In this document: piece by piece, positions 587-8,175 of the stretch
How positions within the stretch are numbered: the first letter of the stretch is position 1
Layout of the letters: each line of letters opens with the position of its first letter
Assembly: GCA_943354475.1 (NCBI GenBank)
Contig: CALRBT010000005.1
Coordinates: 1 to 55,777 of the forward strand
Reading direction: 5' to 3'
DNA length: 55,777 nucleotides
Source of the DNA: Parcubacteria group bacterium
GTDB taxonomy: Bacteria > Patescibacteriota > Minisyncoccia > Phycocordibacterales > CALRBT01
The notes under the pieces: generated by a model
The model's database searches: none
Told to the model about the DNA's origin: nothing
What the model saw: only the letters and a program-made list of their open reading frames with translations
Made by a program: the position numbers and the translations under genes

Positions 587-3500
587 TTAGATGGTGACAG
601 AAAGGGTCTGAGAATCCGTTGGGAGTTCTTTTACCTTGTAGTCATTCAACCAGTCAGCTGTAGTTTCGCTATGGCTGTTAGCTGAACGATCTGACCATAC
701 AAATGAAGGTGTTTGTGTTCCTGCGGCACCAGCAATTACAGAATAGATATCTGGAGTTGCGATACTTGATGTAGGAGCTGCAACACTGACGCTTAGGTAG
801 GTAAGACCTGACCATGTTCCGCCAATAGTGCTCTTCAAGCTGTATGTCTCTGATGAAGAAACTTGCTGTTCAGAATCAGCTACGAAGCTAATGGTTCCAC
901 TCGTTAGAGTAGTTCCGAGAGCGTCGAGGCCTCCAGCCACAGAAGCTGTTGAAGTAGCGAATGTACCAGAAATCACGTTGTTATTGCTATCAACCAATTG
1001 CATAGTACTTGTCGCACCAACAGTAACTGCTGCTGTCTTTGTGATTGTGAACACTATTTTCTTCCATCCAATCTGGTTAGCGGCGTCGGCATCAACTTTA
1101 ACCTTCGCAAGAACCTTTCCAGATCCAGGTGAAAGAATGCTAGATGCCTGAGCAACCATGTTTACGGTAGGCTTACTCTTGACTACGTACATGTTGCTTG
1201 CTGCTTGGTCTGTGGCATATTCTGCCTCAGTTCCACCAGTCCATGGCTGATACTTGAAGCCTTCGAGTGTTACCTTAACATTTGCTGTTGAGGTAGCTGA
1301 ACCAGAAGAAACGGTGTTGAGGTCAAGATAGACATCAACCAATGCTCCTGCTGAATCGTTTGAAGGAATCTTCAAAGCTAGGCCTGTTGTAGTACCGGTA
1401 AATACTGAGTTGAAGGAACTAATTGTTCCAATTTCTGTACTACCATTCTTAAGTACTGCTCGTACGATGGCACCTGAAGAGTTTGCGTTCGTTACCTTAA
1501 GTGCAATATCAGTAACTTTGAAGTCCTGATTAACTGCAGTAAGTCTAAATGAAGCAACTTTCTTTCCTGTGTTTCCACCAACAAGTAATGTTGTTGCTAC
1601 TGATGAATCAGTAAGCGCGGTAGCTGCAACGCTTCCGGCAGCAGCGGTGATTGTCTGGCCTACAACTGCACCTGTTGATACAGATGAGTTACTTGCTGAC
1701 GTACCAGCGACTGTTAGAGAAGGAATTGTTGTGCTTCCAGTAAGGAAGGTTGAACTAAGTGTTCCGTACACTTCAAATGCCATAGTTGCACCTGCAGCCA
1801 AAGGCTCGCTGATGTTCCATGATTGTGAAGATGCACCTGTTGCTTTTACACTGGTTGTCTTTGTGCCGTATTTGACATAAAGATCAGTTGTAGAAGCAGC
1901 TACAGAATCTCCTCCAAGAGCGAGGGTGATTGTGTTGAGATTTACAGACTCAGCTGAGTTTGCAGTTACTCGGAAATCACCAATCTTGTAGGCGGTCTGA
2001 GGAACAACAACTGACTGACTACCGTATGCGCTGTACTTAGAACCAGTAACTGCTCCGACTGAAACTGTTCGAGTATTACCTGAAACAGCTGAGTTTGAGA
2101 AGTAAGTAAGGGCACTTGTTCGTTGTAAGTTACTTGATCCAGCAACGATTGTTGCGGTGATAGTATCACCAGAAACAATTGTGTGCTGAGTTACATCGTT
2201 GTCGTAGATATCAGCTTTTACTTCCAAAGTAACAGGTGTTCCTGGAGTTACTTTCAAAGCAGAACCTAGACTAAATGCAGTTCCGGCAATGGCACCAGAA
2301 ATGTTCTGGGTACTACCAACCTGTACTCCATTAGCAAAGAGTGTTCCGTTTCGGAGACTTACTGTCTGTCCTGCGACAGTTGTTTTTACAGTAAGAGTCT
2401 CTACCTTGATAGCTTCACCAGCTGCCTTAAGCTCAAATGTAGCAAGAACTACGTTTGAAGCATCAGGATTGATGTTACCTGAAGGTGAATCGGTCTTCTT
2501 TGTAATTGTAAGGGTTCCTGCGCTAATTGTCTGAACTCCTGATGTTTGTGCAGAGAATGTTCCGGCAGTTATCGTAGATAGAATTGGCTGTTTAAGTTCA
2601 CTATCAACAAGCATCACATCTGAAGCCTGTCGTAGAGAGAAGCTAAATGTTCGGGTAGAACCACCAACAATGTCAGCCATAAGCTTAATTGTTCGTGAAC
2701 CTGTAGCTAATCGTACCGGACTTGCGCTGAGATCGAATGATACGTATCCATTTGAATCAAGTGAAGCAACAGTGTTTCCAACCTTTACGCTATCGATAAA
2801 TAGCTCAAAGTTTTGAAGATCACTTGTTGTAACTGATCCAATTTGTCGGAAAGTAATGTTCTTAAGATCAAGAGCTCGTGTTCCCACGCTCAATTGTTCC
2901 TCCCATACTTTATAATCATCCTGAGGGTCAACATCCGCTGTTGTAGGAGCAAGTCCTGCAGTAACGAATACACCCGTAGCAAGTGTTGCAGCTGCAACAG
3001 ATTGAGTTCCTCCCATTATTGGGAATGTTCCTGATGCAGGAACACTTGACTCAACTGAAGTAAGCTGTACTCCAACAATCTGTCCAGCAGTTGAATCGAG
3101 GATGTCAGCTTTTACTGAAATCACAACAGAAGCTCCTGCAGGAACCATGAAGAGTCCTGATGGGTCATTGAAAGTAATAACTCCACTTGAAACTGTTGCA
3201 GAGTCAGCTGCTCGCTTTGAACCATTGAACAAGTTCACATTAACAAGTACTGAATCGTTTGAGATTCCAATTCGATTCAAGACAACTTTCGTTACCTTAG
3301 CCTCGGCACTTGTAGTGTTTGTGAAGGTGAAGTGTGCCAAGTCAGCAAGAGCTTGTCCTTGGATGATTGCACCGTTTGAAGGTGAATCAGGTGAAAGTGA
3401 AACCATAACTGTTGTTCCTGTTGGAACTACAGTTGTAGTACAAGGCTTTCCAGTAGTTGAGCTGTATGCAGCTCCTCCTGTACAACCTGTATCAACTACA

Positions 3501-3964
3501 GGTGTAACAACTACTACTCCGCCCATGGTGTTAAGCTTTGCTCTGGTAACTGGACCAACATAGCCCGCTACTGGAGAAATTCCGTGCTTTGACTGAAATT
3601 TCATAACAGCGGCCTTTGTGGCAGGACCAAAGTAACTTGTTTCATTACCAGGTGAGCCTGCTCCTGTTGAAGCAACCTTTGTATCAGCACTCATATTGAG
3701 TACTTTCTGAAGGTTCATTACATCAACCCCGGTTGAACCGACTGTAAGGTTCTTAGAGAAAGTGTAACTACTTGTTGAAGTCGTTGATGATGACCCCTGA
3801 AGCGCAGCTAGCTGCGTAGTCAGTTGTGCAATCTGTGCTTGTAGGTCAGATAACGCGTCAGCATGCGCAGGGGCCACTGAGGCTCCGAGAAACATGCTCA
3901 CTGCGAAAACAATTCCTACAAAACCAGCAACTACCTTCGTAGTGTTTGATTTTAATAACAACAT
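587..3964 (-). CDS. large secreted/surface protein with peptidoglycan-binding (PG_binding_1-like) domain
   Basis: Signal peptide MLLLKSNTTKVVAGFVGIVFAVSMFLGASVAPAHA, coiled coil, then VGSTGVDVMNLQKVLN...YFGPATKAAVMKFQSKHGI...GYVGPVTRAKLN; long Ser/Thr/Val-rich beta-type body. Start moved 48 codons in from the ORF start to the signal peptide Met. Confidence 0.8.
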   Translation of the reverse strand: MLLLKSNTTKVVAGFVGIVFAVSMFLGASVAPAHADALSDLQAQIAQLTTQLAALQGSSSTTSTSSYTFSKNLTVGSTGVDVMNLQKVLNMSADTKVASTGAGSPGNETSYFGPATKAAVMKFQSKHGISPVAGYVGPVTRAKLNTMGGVVVVTPVVDTGCTGGAAYSSTTGKPCTTTVVPTGTTVMVSLSPDSPSNGAIIQGQALADLAHFTFTNTTSAEAKVTKVVLNRIGISNDSVLVNVNLFNGSKRAADSATVSSGVITFNDPSGLFMVPAGASVVISVKADILDSTAGQIVGVQLTSVESSVPASGTFPIMGGTQSVAAATLATGVFVTAGLAPTTADVDPQDDYKVWEEQLSVGTRALDLKNITFRQIGSVTTSDLQNFELFIDSVKVGNTVASLDSNGYVSFDLSASPVRLATGSRTIKLMADIVGGSTRTFSFSLRQASDVMLVDSELKQPILSTITAGTFSAQTSGVQTISAGTLTITKKTDSPSGNINPDASNVVLATFELKAAGEAIKVETLTVKTTVAGQTVSLRNGTLFANGVQVGSTQNISGAIAGTAFSLGSALKVTPGTPVTLEVKADIYDNDVTQHTIVSGDTITATIVAGSSNLQRTSALTYFSNSAVSGNTRTVSVGAVTGSKYSAYGSQSVVVPQTAYKIGDFRVTANSAESVNLNTITLALGGDSVAASTTDLYVKYGTKTTSVKATGASSQSWNISEPLAAGATMAFEVYGTLSSTFLTGSTTIPSLTVAGTSASNSSVSTGAVVGQTITAAAGSVAATALTDSSVATTLLVGGNTGKKVASFRLTAVNQDFKVTDIALKVTNANSSGAIVRAVLKNGSTEIGTISSFNSVFTGTTTGLALKIPSNDSAGALVDVYLDLNTVSSGSATSTANVKVTLEGFKYQPWTGGTEAEYATDQAASNMYVVKSKPTVNMVAQASSILSPGSGKVLAKVKVDADAANQIGWKKIVFTITKTAAVTVGATSTMQLVDSNNNVISGTFATSTASVAGGLDALGTTLTSGTISFVADSEQQVSSSETYSLKSTIGGTWSGLTYLSVSVAAPTSSIATPDIYSVIAGAAGTQTPSFVWSDRSANSHSETTADWLNDYKVKELPTDSQTLSVTI

Positions 3965-4685
3965 AATTTGTTTTCTTTTTATAATTTGTCTTTCAAGTCC
4001 TCCCCTCTTTTTAAAGATGAGTTGGACCAAAAAACGGGAACTTGAAGTTATTATTTTTCGACTAAAAAAATAATAGTACCTCAAGGATAAACTACTAACA
4101 TGAAACAAAACATGATTCTTTTCTGTTTCAGATATTAAGAGACCATGCTTTGCATCCTCATACTATTCTTTATCACTCCTTATGATTTTCGACACAGGGT
4201 AATAAAGATAGTGGACAATGTTTTAGGGAAATTCTTTCATTAAACTTACCGCAACAGAAAAAGGAATGCTGAAATTTCCGCCTTAAATTCATTAAGCCGA
4301 AAATATTTTTTGGTGATCGTTTTAAGATCATTAAAGAAACTTTTTTCTATTCAATTTTCAAAGATCTTTCGTTCTTTTTCTCGTGTAGAGATTACTACAC
4401 TTTTCAGTCTCTCTGTCGATTTACAGTTACTTTAAATGTACATCGTTTTACGTACATTTATAATCTGTAAAGTAGATTATAGTATTTCGAAGAGAGGCCT
4501 GCAAAAAATAAATTGTGGATAACTAAAATAAGGGTTTTTTGGAACCTCTCATAGAGCACATCCACAAACCAAAAGTAACCTTTTTGGACAAAAAAGTCAA
4601 CTAAATCCACCCTCAGTAATAATATGGAAAAGTAGCAGGAAAAAGGTCGTTTGGGTCTTGAATTTTGAATGGTCTAAATATCTAT

Positions 4686-5531
4686 CTATTTATCTGTACG
4701 GAGCGAATATCGACTCCATCTACGCTCCCCTTCTTTCTTTAGGACATTCTCATCAACCATTGCTAAAAGCTCCCGTTGGAGCGTCTTCTCACTACAGTCC
4801 TTTATAAAGACTGATATGTCCTTTATAGAAACCTCCCCACTTTTTTGAATAGCGCTTATTATAAGATTTCTTCTATTTTTTTTATTAACTCCGCCAGAAG
4901 ATTCACCTCCAGTGAAAGTGGCTTTTTTCTCATTCCCAGCCCCTGATATATGTCCTTTATAAGAAATGTCTTTTATGCCACGGAGAGGTTTCTTGTCGCC
5001 AAGTACCTTATAGTAACTTCCCTTATCGTCGTTACTCCTGTTTATTAACTCCGAAAAAATTGAGTTTTGATTTAACTTATTAAGGAAAAAACCCTCGTCA
5101 AAATACTGACTTTTTTGTACTGAATCTGGCTTAGGAACAAGATCGAGTAGGGCTTCTATTTCAACCAAGAGAACCTTTTGGTTCATTGGTGAAAGCATCC
5201 CCGCAACAGAAAGAATTTCTAGTAGAGATTTTATATCAACAAATACCTTATTTAGTTCTAGAAGAAGTGTTTTTTGCTTTTCTGTAATTAGACTAAAGGA
5301 CAGCATCCCTGAGGTTCTTACAAGATCAATGGATAACGATCTGATACGCCATTTAACTGGTTCTTGTGAGTCGAATAAATTGGATACTAAGTGTATGGCA
5401 GCTGCTATTCTTTCTGTTTTTTTTAGAAAAAAATCTAGAAGATCCTGGTTTCCAAAAAAACCTTGTGTATCAAGGTTATTCCACGCCTTATCAATTAAAT
5501 TGTCCTTTATATTTCCAGCTTCCTCTTTCAT
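4686..5531 (-). CDS. DNA-binding protein: N-terminal helical bundle, motif-rich linker, C-terminal DeoR-like HTH
   Basis: C-terminus KKNRRNLIISAIQKSGEVSIKDISVFIKDCSEKTLQRELLAMVDENVLKKEGERRWSRYSL reads as a winged-HTH; N-terminus is predicted helical. Confidence 0.75.
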   Translation of the reverse strand: MKEEAGNIKDNLIDKAWNNLDTQGFFGNQDLLDFFLKKTERIAAAIHLVSNLFDSQEPVKWRIRSLSIDLVRTSGMLSFSLITEKQKTLLLELNKVFVDIKSLLEILSVAGMLSPMNQKVLLVEIEALLDLVPKPDSVQKSQYFDEGFFLNKLNQNSIFSELINRSNDDKGSYYKVLGDKKPLRGIKDISYKGHISGAGNEKKATFTGGESSGGVNKKNRRNLIISAIQKSGEVSIKDISVFIKDCSEKTLQRELLAMVDENVLKKEGERRWSRYSLRTDK

Positions 5532-5600
5532 TGTCTTTTATATTATATGTTGTGTCTTTTACTGAATTTTTATCAAATTTTGTCCATTATATAAAGGACT
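4797..5600. repeat. recurrent word TATAAAGGACA (TGTCCTTTATA on + strand) and near copies
   Basis: + strand: 4797-4806 gtcctttata, 4817-4827 tgtcctttata, 4951-4961 tgtcctttata, 4967-4977 tgtcttttatg, 5501-5511 tgtcctttata, 5532-5542 tgtcttttata, 5553-5563 tgtcttttact, 5581-5600 tgtccattatataaaggact (dyad); opposite orientation 5292-5302 actaaaggaca. Confidence 0.85.
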
Positions 5601-5880: not shown

Positions 5881-8175
5881 ATGGCCAAAAAAGATTCTGA
5901 GGACTCAAAAGAGAAGGGTGATAAAAAAAAGAAATCCGCCAAAGAACCTGAGAGTAGTTTCTTAGGGAAATTACCCGAGAAAACTTTGCGTGGAGTTTTT
6001 GCGGTGCTCTTGTTCATCGTTGCGACATTCTTCATACTCTCTCCTTTTGGAATAGCAGGGCCTGCCGGAAATAAGTTATTCGAGCTCGTCACACTACTTC
6101 TGGGTTACGGTTACTATCTTCTACCGATCCTTAGTCTCATGCTCGCAGTTTCATTTTTACAGGAAAAGGAGCGGCACTTTGCTATAGTAAAAACGATTGG
6201 ATCAATTTTATTTTTCCTATCAGGGATTGGTATCATCACCTTAGCATTACCTGAACACGGAGGAATTGTTGGAGGAATTATCACCTCTCCTCTTATTGCA
6301 CTTTTTGACATCTACATACCATGGATCATATTGACCGGACTCCTTACTATTTCTTTCCTTGTTATGTTTGAAGCAGAACTAAAAATCGGAAACATCCTCT
6401 TCCCTATCCGCCTATACAAGCAATGGAAGGAACGTAAGAATGCTCTAAATACAGTACCAGTTATTGGAAACCCTTCTCAAACACTAACCACTCAGGAGGA
6501 GAAGAAAATGGATGAAAAAATAGAAGAGAGCGAGATCGCTTCAAAAGCCAAGGGGGATGGCGCAAAGGATTCTGGAGACAGGAGATCAGAAAAAGAAGTG
6601 GCGAAAGGAGGTGAAGCTGACGCAGGATTTTTAACCAACTTTGTTAGCTCTACCCCGTTTACCCCACCACCCCTATCTTTACTTGAGGGTGATCGTGGCA
6701 AGCCAGGAGTTGGCGATATCAAGGCAAATGCTAATCTCATTAAAAGAACATTTCAAAACTTTGGAATTGACGTTGAGATGGATGAGATCTCAATAGGTCC
6801 ATCAATTACCAGGTATTCATTGAAACCTGCTGAAGGAGTCAAGCTTTCCCGAATCGTTGCCCTTCAGAGCAACCTTGAGCTAGCCTTAGCTGCGCACCCC
6901 ATCCGTATCGAAGCCCCTATTCCAGGTAAATCATTGGTGGGTATTGAAATTCCCAATACCACCAAAACGACAGTTGGACTCGGCACACTACTTTCAAGTG
7001 AGGAGTACCAGAACTCACCGAAACCACTTCTTGTTTCTCTTGGTAAAGGAATTTCTGGAAAATCTTATTTTGCCGACATTGCAAAGATGCCACATCTCCT
7101 CATTGCAGGAGCAACAGGTTCTGGAAAATCAGTCACCGTACATGCAATTGTAAACTCTCTCCTCTATCGAAACTCACCGGAACAACTTCGCCTCATCATG
7201 ATTGACCCAAAACGTGTAGAGCTTACCCTCTATAATAAAATTCCGCACCTCTTAACTCCTGTTATTACCGATGCAAAAAAGACTATTATGGCCTTGAAAT
7301 GGGCAGCAAAAGAAATGGACCGACGATACAATATCCTTGAAGCTGAAGCTGTCCGGGATATCGACTCGTACCACAAAAACGTTGTTGTCCCTGCCTACAA
7401 TAAATCAAAGAAAGAACCTGGCAACGACGGCGCCCCCGCAACACTGCCAGAAGCAATGCCTTACATCGTGATCATTATCGATGAACTAGCGGATATTATG
7501 CAAGCGTACCCAAGAGAGCTCGAGAGTTCAATTGTTCGACTAGCTCAAATGAGTCGCGCAGTTGGAATTCACCTCATTCTATCAACACAGAGACCATCAG
7601 TTAATGTCATTACAGGTCTTATCAAAGCAAACGTGCCATCGAGAATTGCTCTCCAGGTTGCTTCCCAAATTGATTCCAGAACCATTCTCGATACTAGTGG
7701 GGCTGAGAAACTTCTTGGTGCTGGAGATATGCTCTATCTTTCAGGAGACATGTCTAAACCACAACGTATCCAGTCGGCATTTATTACAGAAACCGAGACC
7801 AAAAATGTGGTAAAATTCCTTGTTGACGCATACAAAGATGAGATTCCTCAAACAATTGAATTTGCTCAGAATAACGGAATTGAGATTGAAAAGAATAGCA
7901 TTTTCGACGCAATGGATAGCAGTGATGGAGACATGGATGAAGACGACCTTTACGAAGAAGCGCGGCAAATTGTTGTTGATTCAGGAATTGCTGCAACTTC
8001 ATACTTACAAAGAAAGCTTCGTGTTGGGTATGCCAGAGCAGCGAGACTTATGGATATTCTTGAAGAACGCGGCGTTATTGGACCAGCTGACGGTTCGAAA
8101 CGACGTGAAGTAATTGGTGCAAAACCAAAAGAGGATCCCCAGGAAGAGCTCTCTGGCACAGCCCCTACGTTTTAA
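5881..8175 (+). CDS. ftsK: DNA translocase FtsK/SpoIIIE
   Basis: N-terminal TM helices, Walker A GATGSGKS, VIIIDELADIM, C-terminal gamma winged-helix ATSYLQRKLRVGYARAARLMDILEERGVIGP. Confidence 0.95.
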   Translation: MAKKDSEDSKEKGDKKKKSAKEPESSFLGKLPEKTLRGVFAVLLFIVATFFILSPFGIAGPAGNKLFELVTLLLGYGYYLLPILSLMLAVSFLQEKERHFAIVKTIGSILFFLSGIGIITLALPEHGGIVGGIITSPLIALFDIYIPWIILTGLLTISFLVMFEAELKIGNILFPIRLYKQWKERKNALNTVPVIGNPSQTLTTQEEKKMDEKIEESEIASKAKGDGAKDSGDRRSEKEVAKGGEADAGFLTNFVSSTPFTPPPLSLLEGDRGKPGVGDIKANANLIKRTFQNFGIDVEMDEISIGPSITRYSLKPAEGVKLSRIVALQSNLELALAAHPIRIEAPIPGKSLVGIEIPNTTKTTVGLGTLLSSEEYQNSPKPLLVSLGKGISGKSYFADIAKMPHLLIAGATGSGKSVTVHAIVNSLLYRNSPEQLRLIMIDPKRVELTLYNKIPHLLTPVITDAKKTIMALKWAAKEMDRRYNILEAEAVRDIDSYHKNVVVPAYNKSKKEPGNDGAPATLPEAMPYIVIIIDELADIMQAYPRELESSIVRLAQMSRAVGIHLILSTQRPSVNVITGLIKANVPSRIALQVASQIDSRTILDTSGAEKLLGAGDMLYLSGDMSKPQRIQSAFITETETKNVVKFLVDAYKDEIPQTIEFAQNNGIEIEKNSIFDAMDSSDGDMDEDDLYEEARQIVVDSGIAATSYLQRKLRVGYARAARLMDILEERGVIGPADGSKRREVIGAKPKEDPQEELSGTAPTF

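Follow-up and report, generated by a model that had tools for sequence, protein, structure and literature searches.

A DNA word kept by selection within and before a winged-helix gene points to a self-controlling, replication-linked regulator in one order of Paceibacteria

Here we describe a short DNA word, TATAAAGGACA, that recurs inside and directly upstream of an uncharacterised gene encoding a putative regulator in Paceibacteria, and we show that the word is kept by selection on DNA and not by conservation of the peptide or the RNA. The explanation that we favour, and that we hold to be probable without being certain of it, is that the gene product is an autoregulator that binds its own gene and a second, origin-proximal site carrying DnaA boxes, where it acts together with DnaA. 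Binding, autorepression, oligomerisation and the partnership with DnaA are all inferred.

The word in the regulator gene and its homologues

The following features are found in and around the gene in the window, by which we mean the whole stretch of 55,777 nucleotides that was analysed.

4686 to 5531, minus strand: regulator gene (open reading frame), 281 aa, uncharacterised
4796 to 4806, minus strand: word with one mismatch (TATAAAGGACT), read as FIKDC in the frame ATA AAG GAC (word search)
4817 to 4827, minus strand: exact word, read as SIKDI in the frame ATA AAG GAC (word search)
4951 to 4961, minus strand: exact word, read as YKGHI in the other frame, TAT AAA GGA CAT (word search)
4967 to 4977, minus strand: core word TAAAAGACA (within CATAAAAGACA), a two-base variant of the 11-mer, read as GIKDI in the frame ATA AAA GAC
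5294 to 5302, plus strand: antisense core word TAAAGGACA inside the regulator gene (word search)
5501 to 5511, minus strand: exact word near the N terminus, read as NIKDN in the frame ATA AAG GAC (word search)
5532 to 5542, minus strand: word variant TATAAAAGACA with one mismatch, directly 5' of the ATG (word search)
5553 to 5563, minus strand: core word TAAAAGACA in the leader (within AGTAAAAGACA), a three-base variant of the 11-mer
5581 to 5591, minus strand: TATAATGGACA, a putative -10 box fused to the word, one mismatch (word search and homologue comparison)
5590 to 5600, plus strand: opposed word TATAAAGGACT, second arm of the dyad, one mismatch (word search)
5881 to 8175, plus strand: divergent neighbour ftsK (open reading frame list and locus comparison)

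With up to one mismatch, the 11-mer TATAAAGGACA has eight matches in the window against 1.4 expected from dinucleotide shuffles, a number reached by none of 100 shuffles, and seven of the eight fall within 4796-5600. The source genome (786,119 bp on 16 contigs) contains only four exact copies, three of which lie inside the regulator gene, all on the minus strand, which is sense for this gene. The coding sequence (CDS) carries these three exact copies, one near copy and two copies of the family core, TAAARGACA (longer form, TATAAARGACA), one sense and one antisense; a further four words are located in the 70 bp upstream. When the window gene alone is shuffled synonymously, the three exact copies have a P value of 0.0014 (mean 0.29) and the four copies with up to one mismatch a P value of 0.02. 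The preliminary description had listed clustered copies at these positions, and they are indeed there, except that the first one starts at 4796 and not at 4797; the antisense core word at 5294-5302 was absent from its list. Of those it had given as inexact copies or one-base variants, the copies at 4796-4806 and 5532-5542 deserve the name, whereas that at 4967-4977 differs by two bases and that at 5553-5563 by three, both having the core TAAARGACA. The dyad it had placed at 5581-5600, TGTCCATTATATAAAGGACT, is made by the two one-mismatch words at 5581-5591 (minus) and 5590-5600 (plus), and the reading of the word in two frames of the CDS, as IKD and as YKGH, is as it had been given; a third sense frame is impossible because TAA would be read as a stop codon.

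Whether the word is selected as DNA can be judged from the homologues, which comprise a set of 29 (excluding the window gene) and 64 further independent ones, making 94 together with the window gene. Synonymous codon permutation leaves every gene with its protein sequence and its codon usage unchanged. In the set of 29, exact sense copies number 16 versus 2.6 after permutation; allowing one mismatch, there are 57 versus 16 sense and 19 versus 2 antisense copies, and the 150 bp upstream of the genes contain 40 words against 0.2 expected. The 64 further homologues contain the core TAAARGACA 100 times in sense (mean 18 and maximum 29 in 200 synonymous shuffles) and 14 times in antisense orientation (mean 1.6, maximum 5). 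Core density at these 64 loci is 2.23 per kb in the CDS and 6.31 per kb in the 200 bp upstream, against 0.28 per kb in the 400 bp downstream and 0.02 per kb in other flanking DNA. The heptamer AAGGACA also emerged unprompted among the most over-represented 7-mers, with 389 copies in 93 of the 94 homologues where 82 are expected. Across homologues the core stands at unaligned positions, in both possible sense frames, on both strands, and in promoters as well as CDSs; 60 of the 100 sense core words fall in the region encoding the linker of the protein (see below), and at one locus (L051, genome G003) more antisense words lie past the stop codon of the regulator gene, at +925 to +1237 from the gene start. 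The word-to-word spacings are irregular (11-24 bp and more), and a strictly helically phased array was rejected on account of this breadth.

Since the permuted genes still encode the same proteins with the same codons, peptide conservation cannot explain the excess of words. It might still be argued that the IKD and KGH peptides are conserved, or that the copies arose by chance, and that the DNA word merely follows, for the winged-helix IKD is indeed conserved at the protein level; this is contradicted by the synonymous shuffles and by the antisense and non-coding copies, which refute it for the regulator family as a whole, and we attach practically no weight to it. An RNA-level or sequence-tag function, which had been proposed as an alternative, did not survive either: a tag acting as RNA or peptide is excluded as the main cause, since copies also exist in antisense, in non-coding promoters upstream and between two genes that meet 3'-3'. 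A DNA uptake sequence, which has hundreds of copies genome-wide, was rejected in view of the four exact copies in 786 kb. The main inference drawn beforehand, selection on a DNA word with an autoregulator as its likeliest cause, is thus supported both by the nucleotides that the homologues retain beyond the needs of the peptide, as judged by the synonymous shuffles, and by the rarity of the word in the rest of the genome and in neighbouring DNA.

The protein and its own promoter

Homologues of the regulator are present in 172 of the 197 genomes of the order, under the names Taylor-, Zambryski-, Nomura-, Kaiser- and Yonathbacteria; full-length relatives are nearly confined to the order, and what is found outside it consists mostly of weak winged-helix matches. 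The window protein matches no Pfam or NCBIfam family above cut-off, while HTH_DeoR is matched by 18 of 23 aligned members (best E 8.6e-7). Three regions can be distinguished.

5139 to 5447, minus strand: N-terminal four-helix bundle, residues 29-131, S23/23S-rRNA-IVP/Avd-like (AlphaFold2, Foldseek)
4890 to 5117, minus strand: low-confidence linker, about residues 139-214, with the YKGH and GIKDI words (pLDDT, alignment)
4701 to 4892, minus strand: C-terminal winged helix, residues 214-277 (alignment A1, AlphaFold2, fold matches)

The bundle is predicted by AlphaFold2 with a block pLDDT mostly above 90, and its top Foldseek match is 2gsc (TM by target 0.82, rmsd 1.3, E 5.9e-3), followed in the PDB by the S23-type protein 2rld and the Avd protein 4dwl. 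Its predicted fold is that of the S23/23S rRNA intervening-sequence proteins and of Avd (bAvd), which differ from the regulator in being single-domain, whereas its bundle is linked to a winged helix. Pentamers have been described for this type of four-helix bundle, and the chains A-E shown in the 2gsc and 2rld entries are in line with them. The linker has a pLDDT below 50 at residues 139-142, 151-160 and 164-214 and poorly conserved columns in alignment A1; judged from the model, it is probably disordered. The idea that the IKD and KGH segments would lie in a disordered linker holds for YKGH, which is in the low-confidence linker, but fails for SIKDI and FIKDC, which AlphaFold places in the winged helix. 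The latter domain (pLDDT about 89-95 per block) has a nearly invariant CSEKTxQREL helix and GERRWSxY wing in alignment A1, and its Foldseek matches include BlaI/MecI, ArsR-type, AspA and TubR domains, among many others. Near-invariance of the recognition helix CSEKTxQREL is what would be expected if the target DNA is constant.

That the regulator itself binds the word is inferred from the location of the copies, the invariant helix and co-loss, and there are no binding data. The co-loss concerns two families, f25 (three genomes) and f86 (two genomes), in which no protein matches the regulator profile; no word pair is present in the four of these genomes that were searched, and all five have only scattered, unclustered single words. 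This is no more than suggestive of binding by the regulator. Against it, four genomes (G022, G117, G135 and G096) keep word pairs without a detectable regulator, perhaps because of assembly gaps or because another protein binds there. Over all genomes, the presence of the regulator is only weakly associated with that of the word, because several fragmented genomes without a detectable gene keep words, and the association is clean only for f25 and f86.

Operator-like sites overlap the regulator's own promoter, and this is conserved (6.3 words per kb in the upstream 200 bp). A putative -10 box, TATAAT, is fused to GGACA of the word in 44 of the 94 homologues, and a TTGC/TTTAC block precedes the fused hexamer by about 22 bp, so binding at the hexamer should block RNA polymerase; the dyad is not present in every homologue. 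An FtsK match also adjoins the regulator gene at nine of the loci compared. The autorepressors of the BlaI/MecI, DeoR and ArsR types are alike in having a winged helix and an operator over their own promoter, although the operator of the regulator is only putative, and they differ in the oligomerising domain. We know of no member of these types with clustered operators inside its own gene. Our literature searches found no description of an origin or of such a regulator for this bacterial group, and none of the papers found to contain the word concerned bacterial regulation.

DnaA boxes and the xth-cca-yraN locus

A DnaA box accompanies the regulator gene.

4514 to 4522, minus strand: DnaA box TTATCCACA, 163 bp 3' of the regulator gene (box search)

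In 77 of 91 homologues the 600 bp 3' of the regulator include an exact TTATCCACA, always in the same orientation, which gives a density of 1.42 DnaA boxes per kb compared to 0-0.07 per kb elsewhere in the same loci. Downstream of the regulator gene lies a gene for a large secreted protein with a peptidoglycan-binding-like N terminus (587-4108, minus strand). The box sits in the gap between the two genes, and neighbours resembling the secreted-protein gene are found again at homologous loci. The box may belong to this downstream surface-protein gene.

Tandem pairs of the core word were found in 116 of 148 genomes, with only five hits in all for a reversed-pattern control, and inverted pairs in 46 of 148. 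Two loci hold most of the words: the regulator gene and xth-cca-yraN. Where xth and cca converge (3'-3'), the DNA between them contains a tandem pair, as a rule with a spacing of 11 bp (TAAAAGACATGTAAAGGACA), and behind it a DnaA box; a strict pattern finds this arrangement at 24 of 39 loci. Upstream (5') of yraN there are three packed DnaA-like boxes, the last of which overlaps a word (TGTGGATAACTCTGTGTATATGTGTATAAARGACA); the block is present at up to 18 of 39 loci by strict pattern, a count that includes two xth-side elements (L093 and L106), and the source genome has its own copy. The distance from word to DnaA box on the yraN side is constant at 26 bp. Among the 27 exact DnaA boxes in 842 kb of sequence picked for skew and not for words, three are no more than 100 bp away from a word (0.26 expected), the distance being exactly 26 bp each time. 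The xth-cca-yraN locus is, therefore, a conserved DnaA-box cluster outside oriC with word sites beside it.

Minor word loci, in a few genomes each, include the ValRS/surface-protein region, DNA polymerase III delta and comF, the last in the source genome and in G018. It should be noted that these regulon loci derive from word-pair searches, that each was seen in few genomes only, and that ribonucleotide reductase, ValRS and comF were named by sequence and similarity to the source-genome gene and not by family search. The comF CDS in these two genomes has four words or close variants on both strands (L058:4882-4974 and L338:2597-2676). A near-palindrome in the source-genome comF, TGTCCTTTATCGTATTAAGGACA, overlaps a conserved ComF motif and may in part reflect constraint on the protein. 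In five genomes (L328, L356, L357, L358 and L327), words are found inside or immediately 5' of a DUF192 gene, which itself directly precedes an apparent ribonucleotide reductase gene. The gene for the CCA-adding enzyme has a conserved intragenic word pair about 24 bp apart (KGQLVDLYKGQ; L057:5998-6030 and homologues).

These loci bear on whether the protein is no more than an ordinary autorepressor with a small regulon. The word would then be purely transcriptional, its intragenic copies would be roadblock or looping operators, and DnaA would act there as an independent transcription factor. Such a reading would suit the putative -10 fusion and the words before or in the ribonucleotide reductase, ValRS, surface-protein and comF loci, but it sits poorly with the confinement of most words to two loci and with a word pair and a DnaA box in the xth/cca 3'-3' gap, where no promoter is expected. 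We regard it as possible but doubtful.

In six genomes, a distance of 28-51 kb separates cca from dnaA, and the raw skew pointed to cca as the origin in G002 and G118. When third-position skew was fitted with a change point and gene direction was taken as a covariate, the strand-corrected flip came to lie no more than about 3 kb from dnaA in G015, G050, G036, G002 and G088, and at cca in G086 alone; another three genomes remained unresolved. The cca locus as replication origin was rejected, as the corrected flip is at dnaA in five of the six resolved genomes; xth-cca-yraN is origin-proximal and not the origin itself. In G105, a single contig that is 99% complete, the regulator is present, yet the search gave no hit for either DnaA (PF00308) or the CCA-adding enzyme; masked stretches are a possible cause.

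A replication-control element of the datA/DARS or crtS/iteron type, formed by the regulator and DnaA at the cca locus, with the array in the regulator's own gene titrating the protein, can be entertained tentatively. It would be supported by the packed DnaA boxes overlapping a word at yraN, in the source genome too, and by the distance of cca from dnaA. The DARS core of Escherichia coli combines three DnaA boxes with sites for IHF/Fis (PMC4245941), and datA, DARS1 and DARS2 share with the word locus non-coding DnaA-box clusters next to sites of a second protein, away from oriC; they differ in having IHF/Fis as partner and in box layout, and a DARS-like activity of the word locus is conjectural. 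RctB and plasmid Rep iteron systems combine short direct repeats at 10-12 bp spacing, a nearby DnaA box and an autorepressing DNA-binding protein (PMC6090056), a spacing that the tandem words 11 bp apart resemble. The likeness, which extends to crtS, lies in the short direct repeats, the nearby DnaA box and a putative autorepressor; the difference is that the regulator has no Rep or RctB initiator homology in its Pfam, NCBIfam and PDB matches, and that the cca locus is not an origin. What speaks against such an element is that functional data are lacking and that the locus is not oriC, the flip being at cca in one genome only.

The word clusters are origin-proximal and often inside genes, which would also fit centromere-like partition, the regulator being a ParB analogue and the clusters parS-like sites: parS sites occupy the ori domain (PMC7022226) and are likewise partly intragenic, and the winged helix resembles those of the centromere-binding proteins AspA and TubR, though also many others. 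The word, however, is also found on a -10 box and before metabolic genes, the ParB fold is unrelated, and no ParB-family match was obtained for the regulator in Pfam or NCBIfam, and we consider partition improbable.

A possible mechanism and its implications

According to the autoregulator model that we prefer, the winged helix would recognise TATAAARGACA (core TAAARGACA), and the S23-like bundle would form oligomers, as expected from its relatives. Long flexible linkers on an oligomeric core could enable several winged helices to grip sites that are irregularly spaced and of mixed orientation. The regulator would bind its own promoter at the -10 box together with the array inside its own gene and so repress itself, the CDS array perhaps adding a roadblock, looping or titration, and selection would retain words in the CDS while their exact position and frame drift. 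Its other targets would be chiefly xth-cca-yraN, beside the DnaA boxes, and further the DUF192-ribonucleotide reductase, ValRS/surface-protein and comF loci, with the regulator acting together with DnaA in replication-linked control. Whether the pairing of word and DnaA box, the most interesting part of the finding, reflects a DARS/datA-like replication-control element or joint transcriptional control with DnaA remains open. One may speculate, and we put it no higher than that, that the protein is a multivalent, perhaps pentameric, partner of DnaA specific to this lineage, that it times replication in Paceibacteria, and that it is titrated and autorepressed by the operator array in its own CDS.

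In summary, this would be an unusual case in which the putative binding sites of a protein are maintained inside its own gene, in an array that persists across the order while the individual copies shift in position and frame. How the reduced genomes of Patescibacteria control replication and expression is almost entirely unknown. A protein that is nearly universal in the order, with a recognisable DNA site, a few candidate targets and a recurring link to DnaA boxes, makes the question directly testable. With binding inferred, the results point to an unrecognised self-controlling, replication-linked regulator in one order of Paceibacteria (Parcubacteria group).
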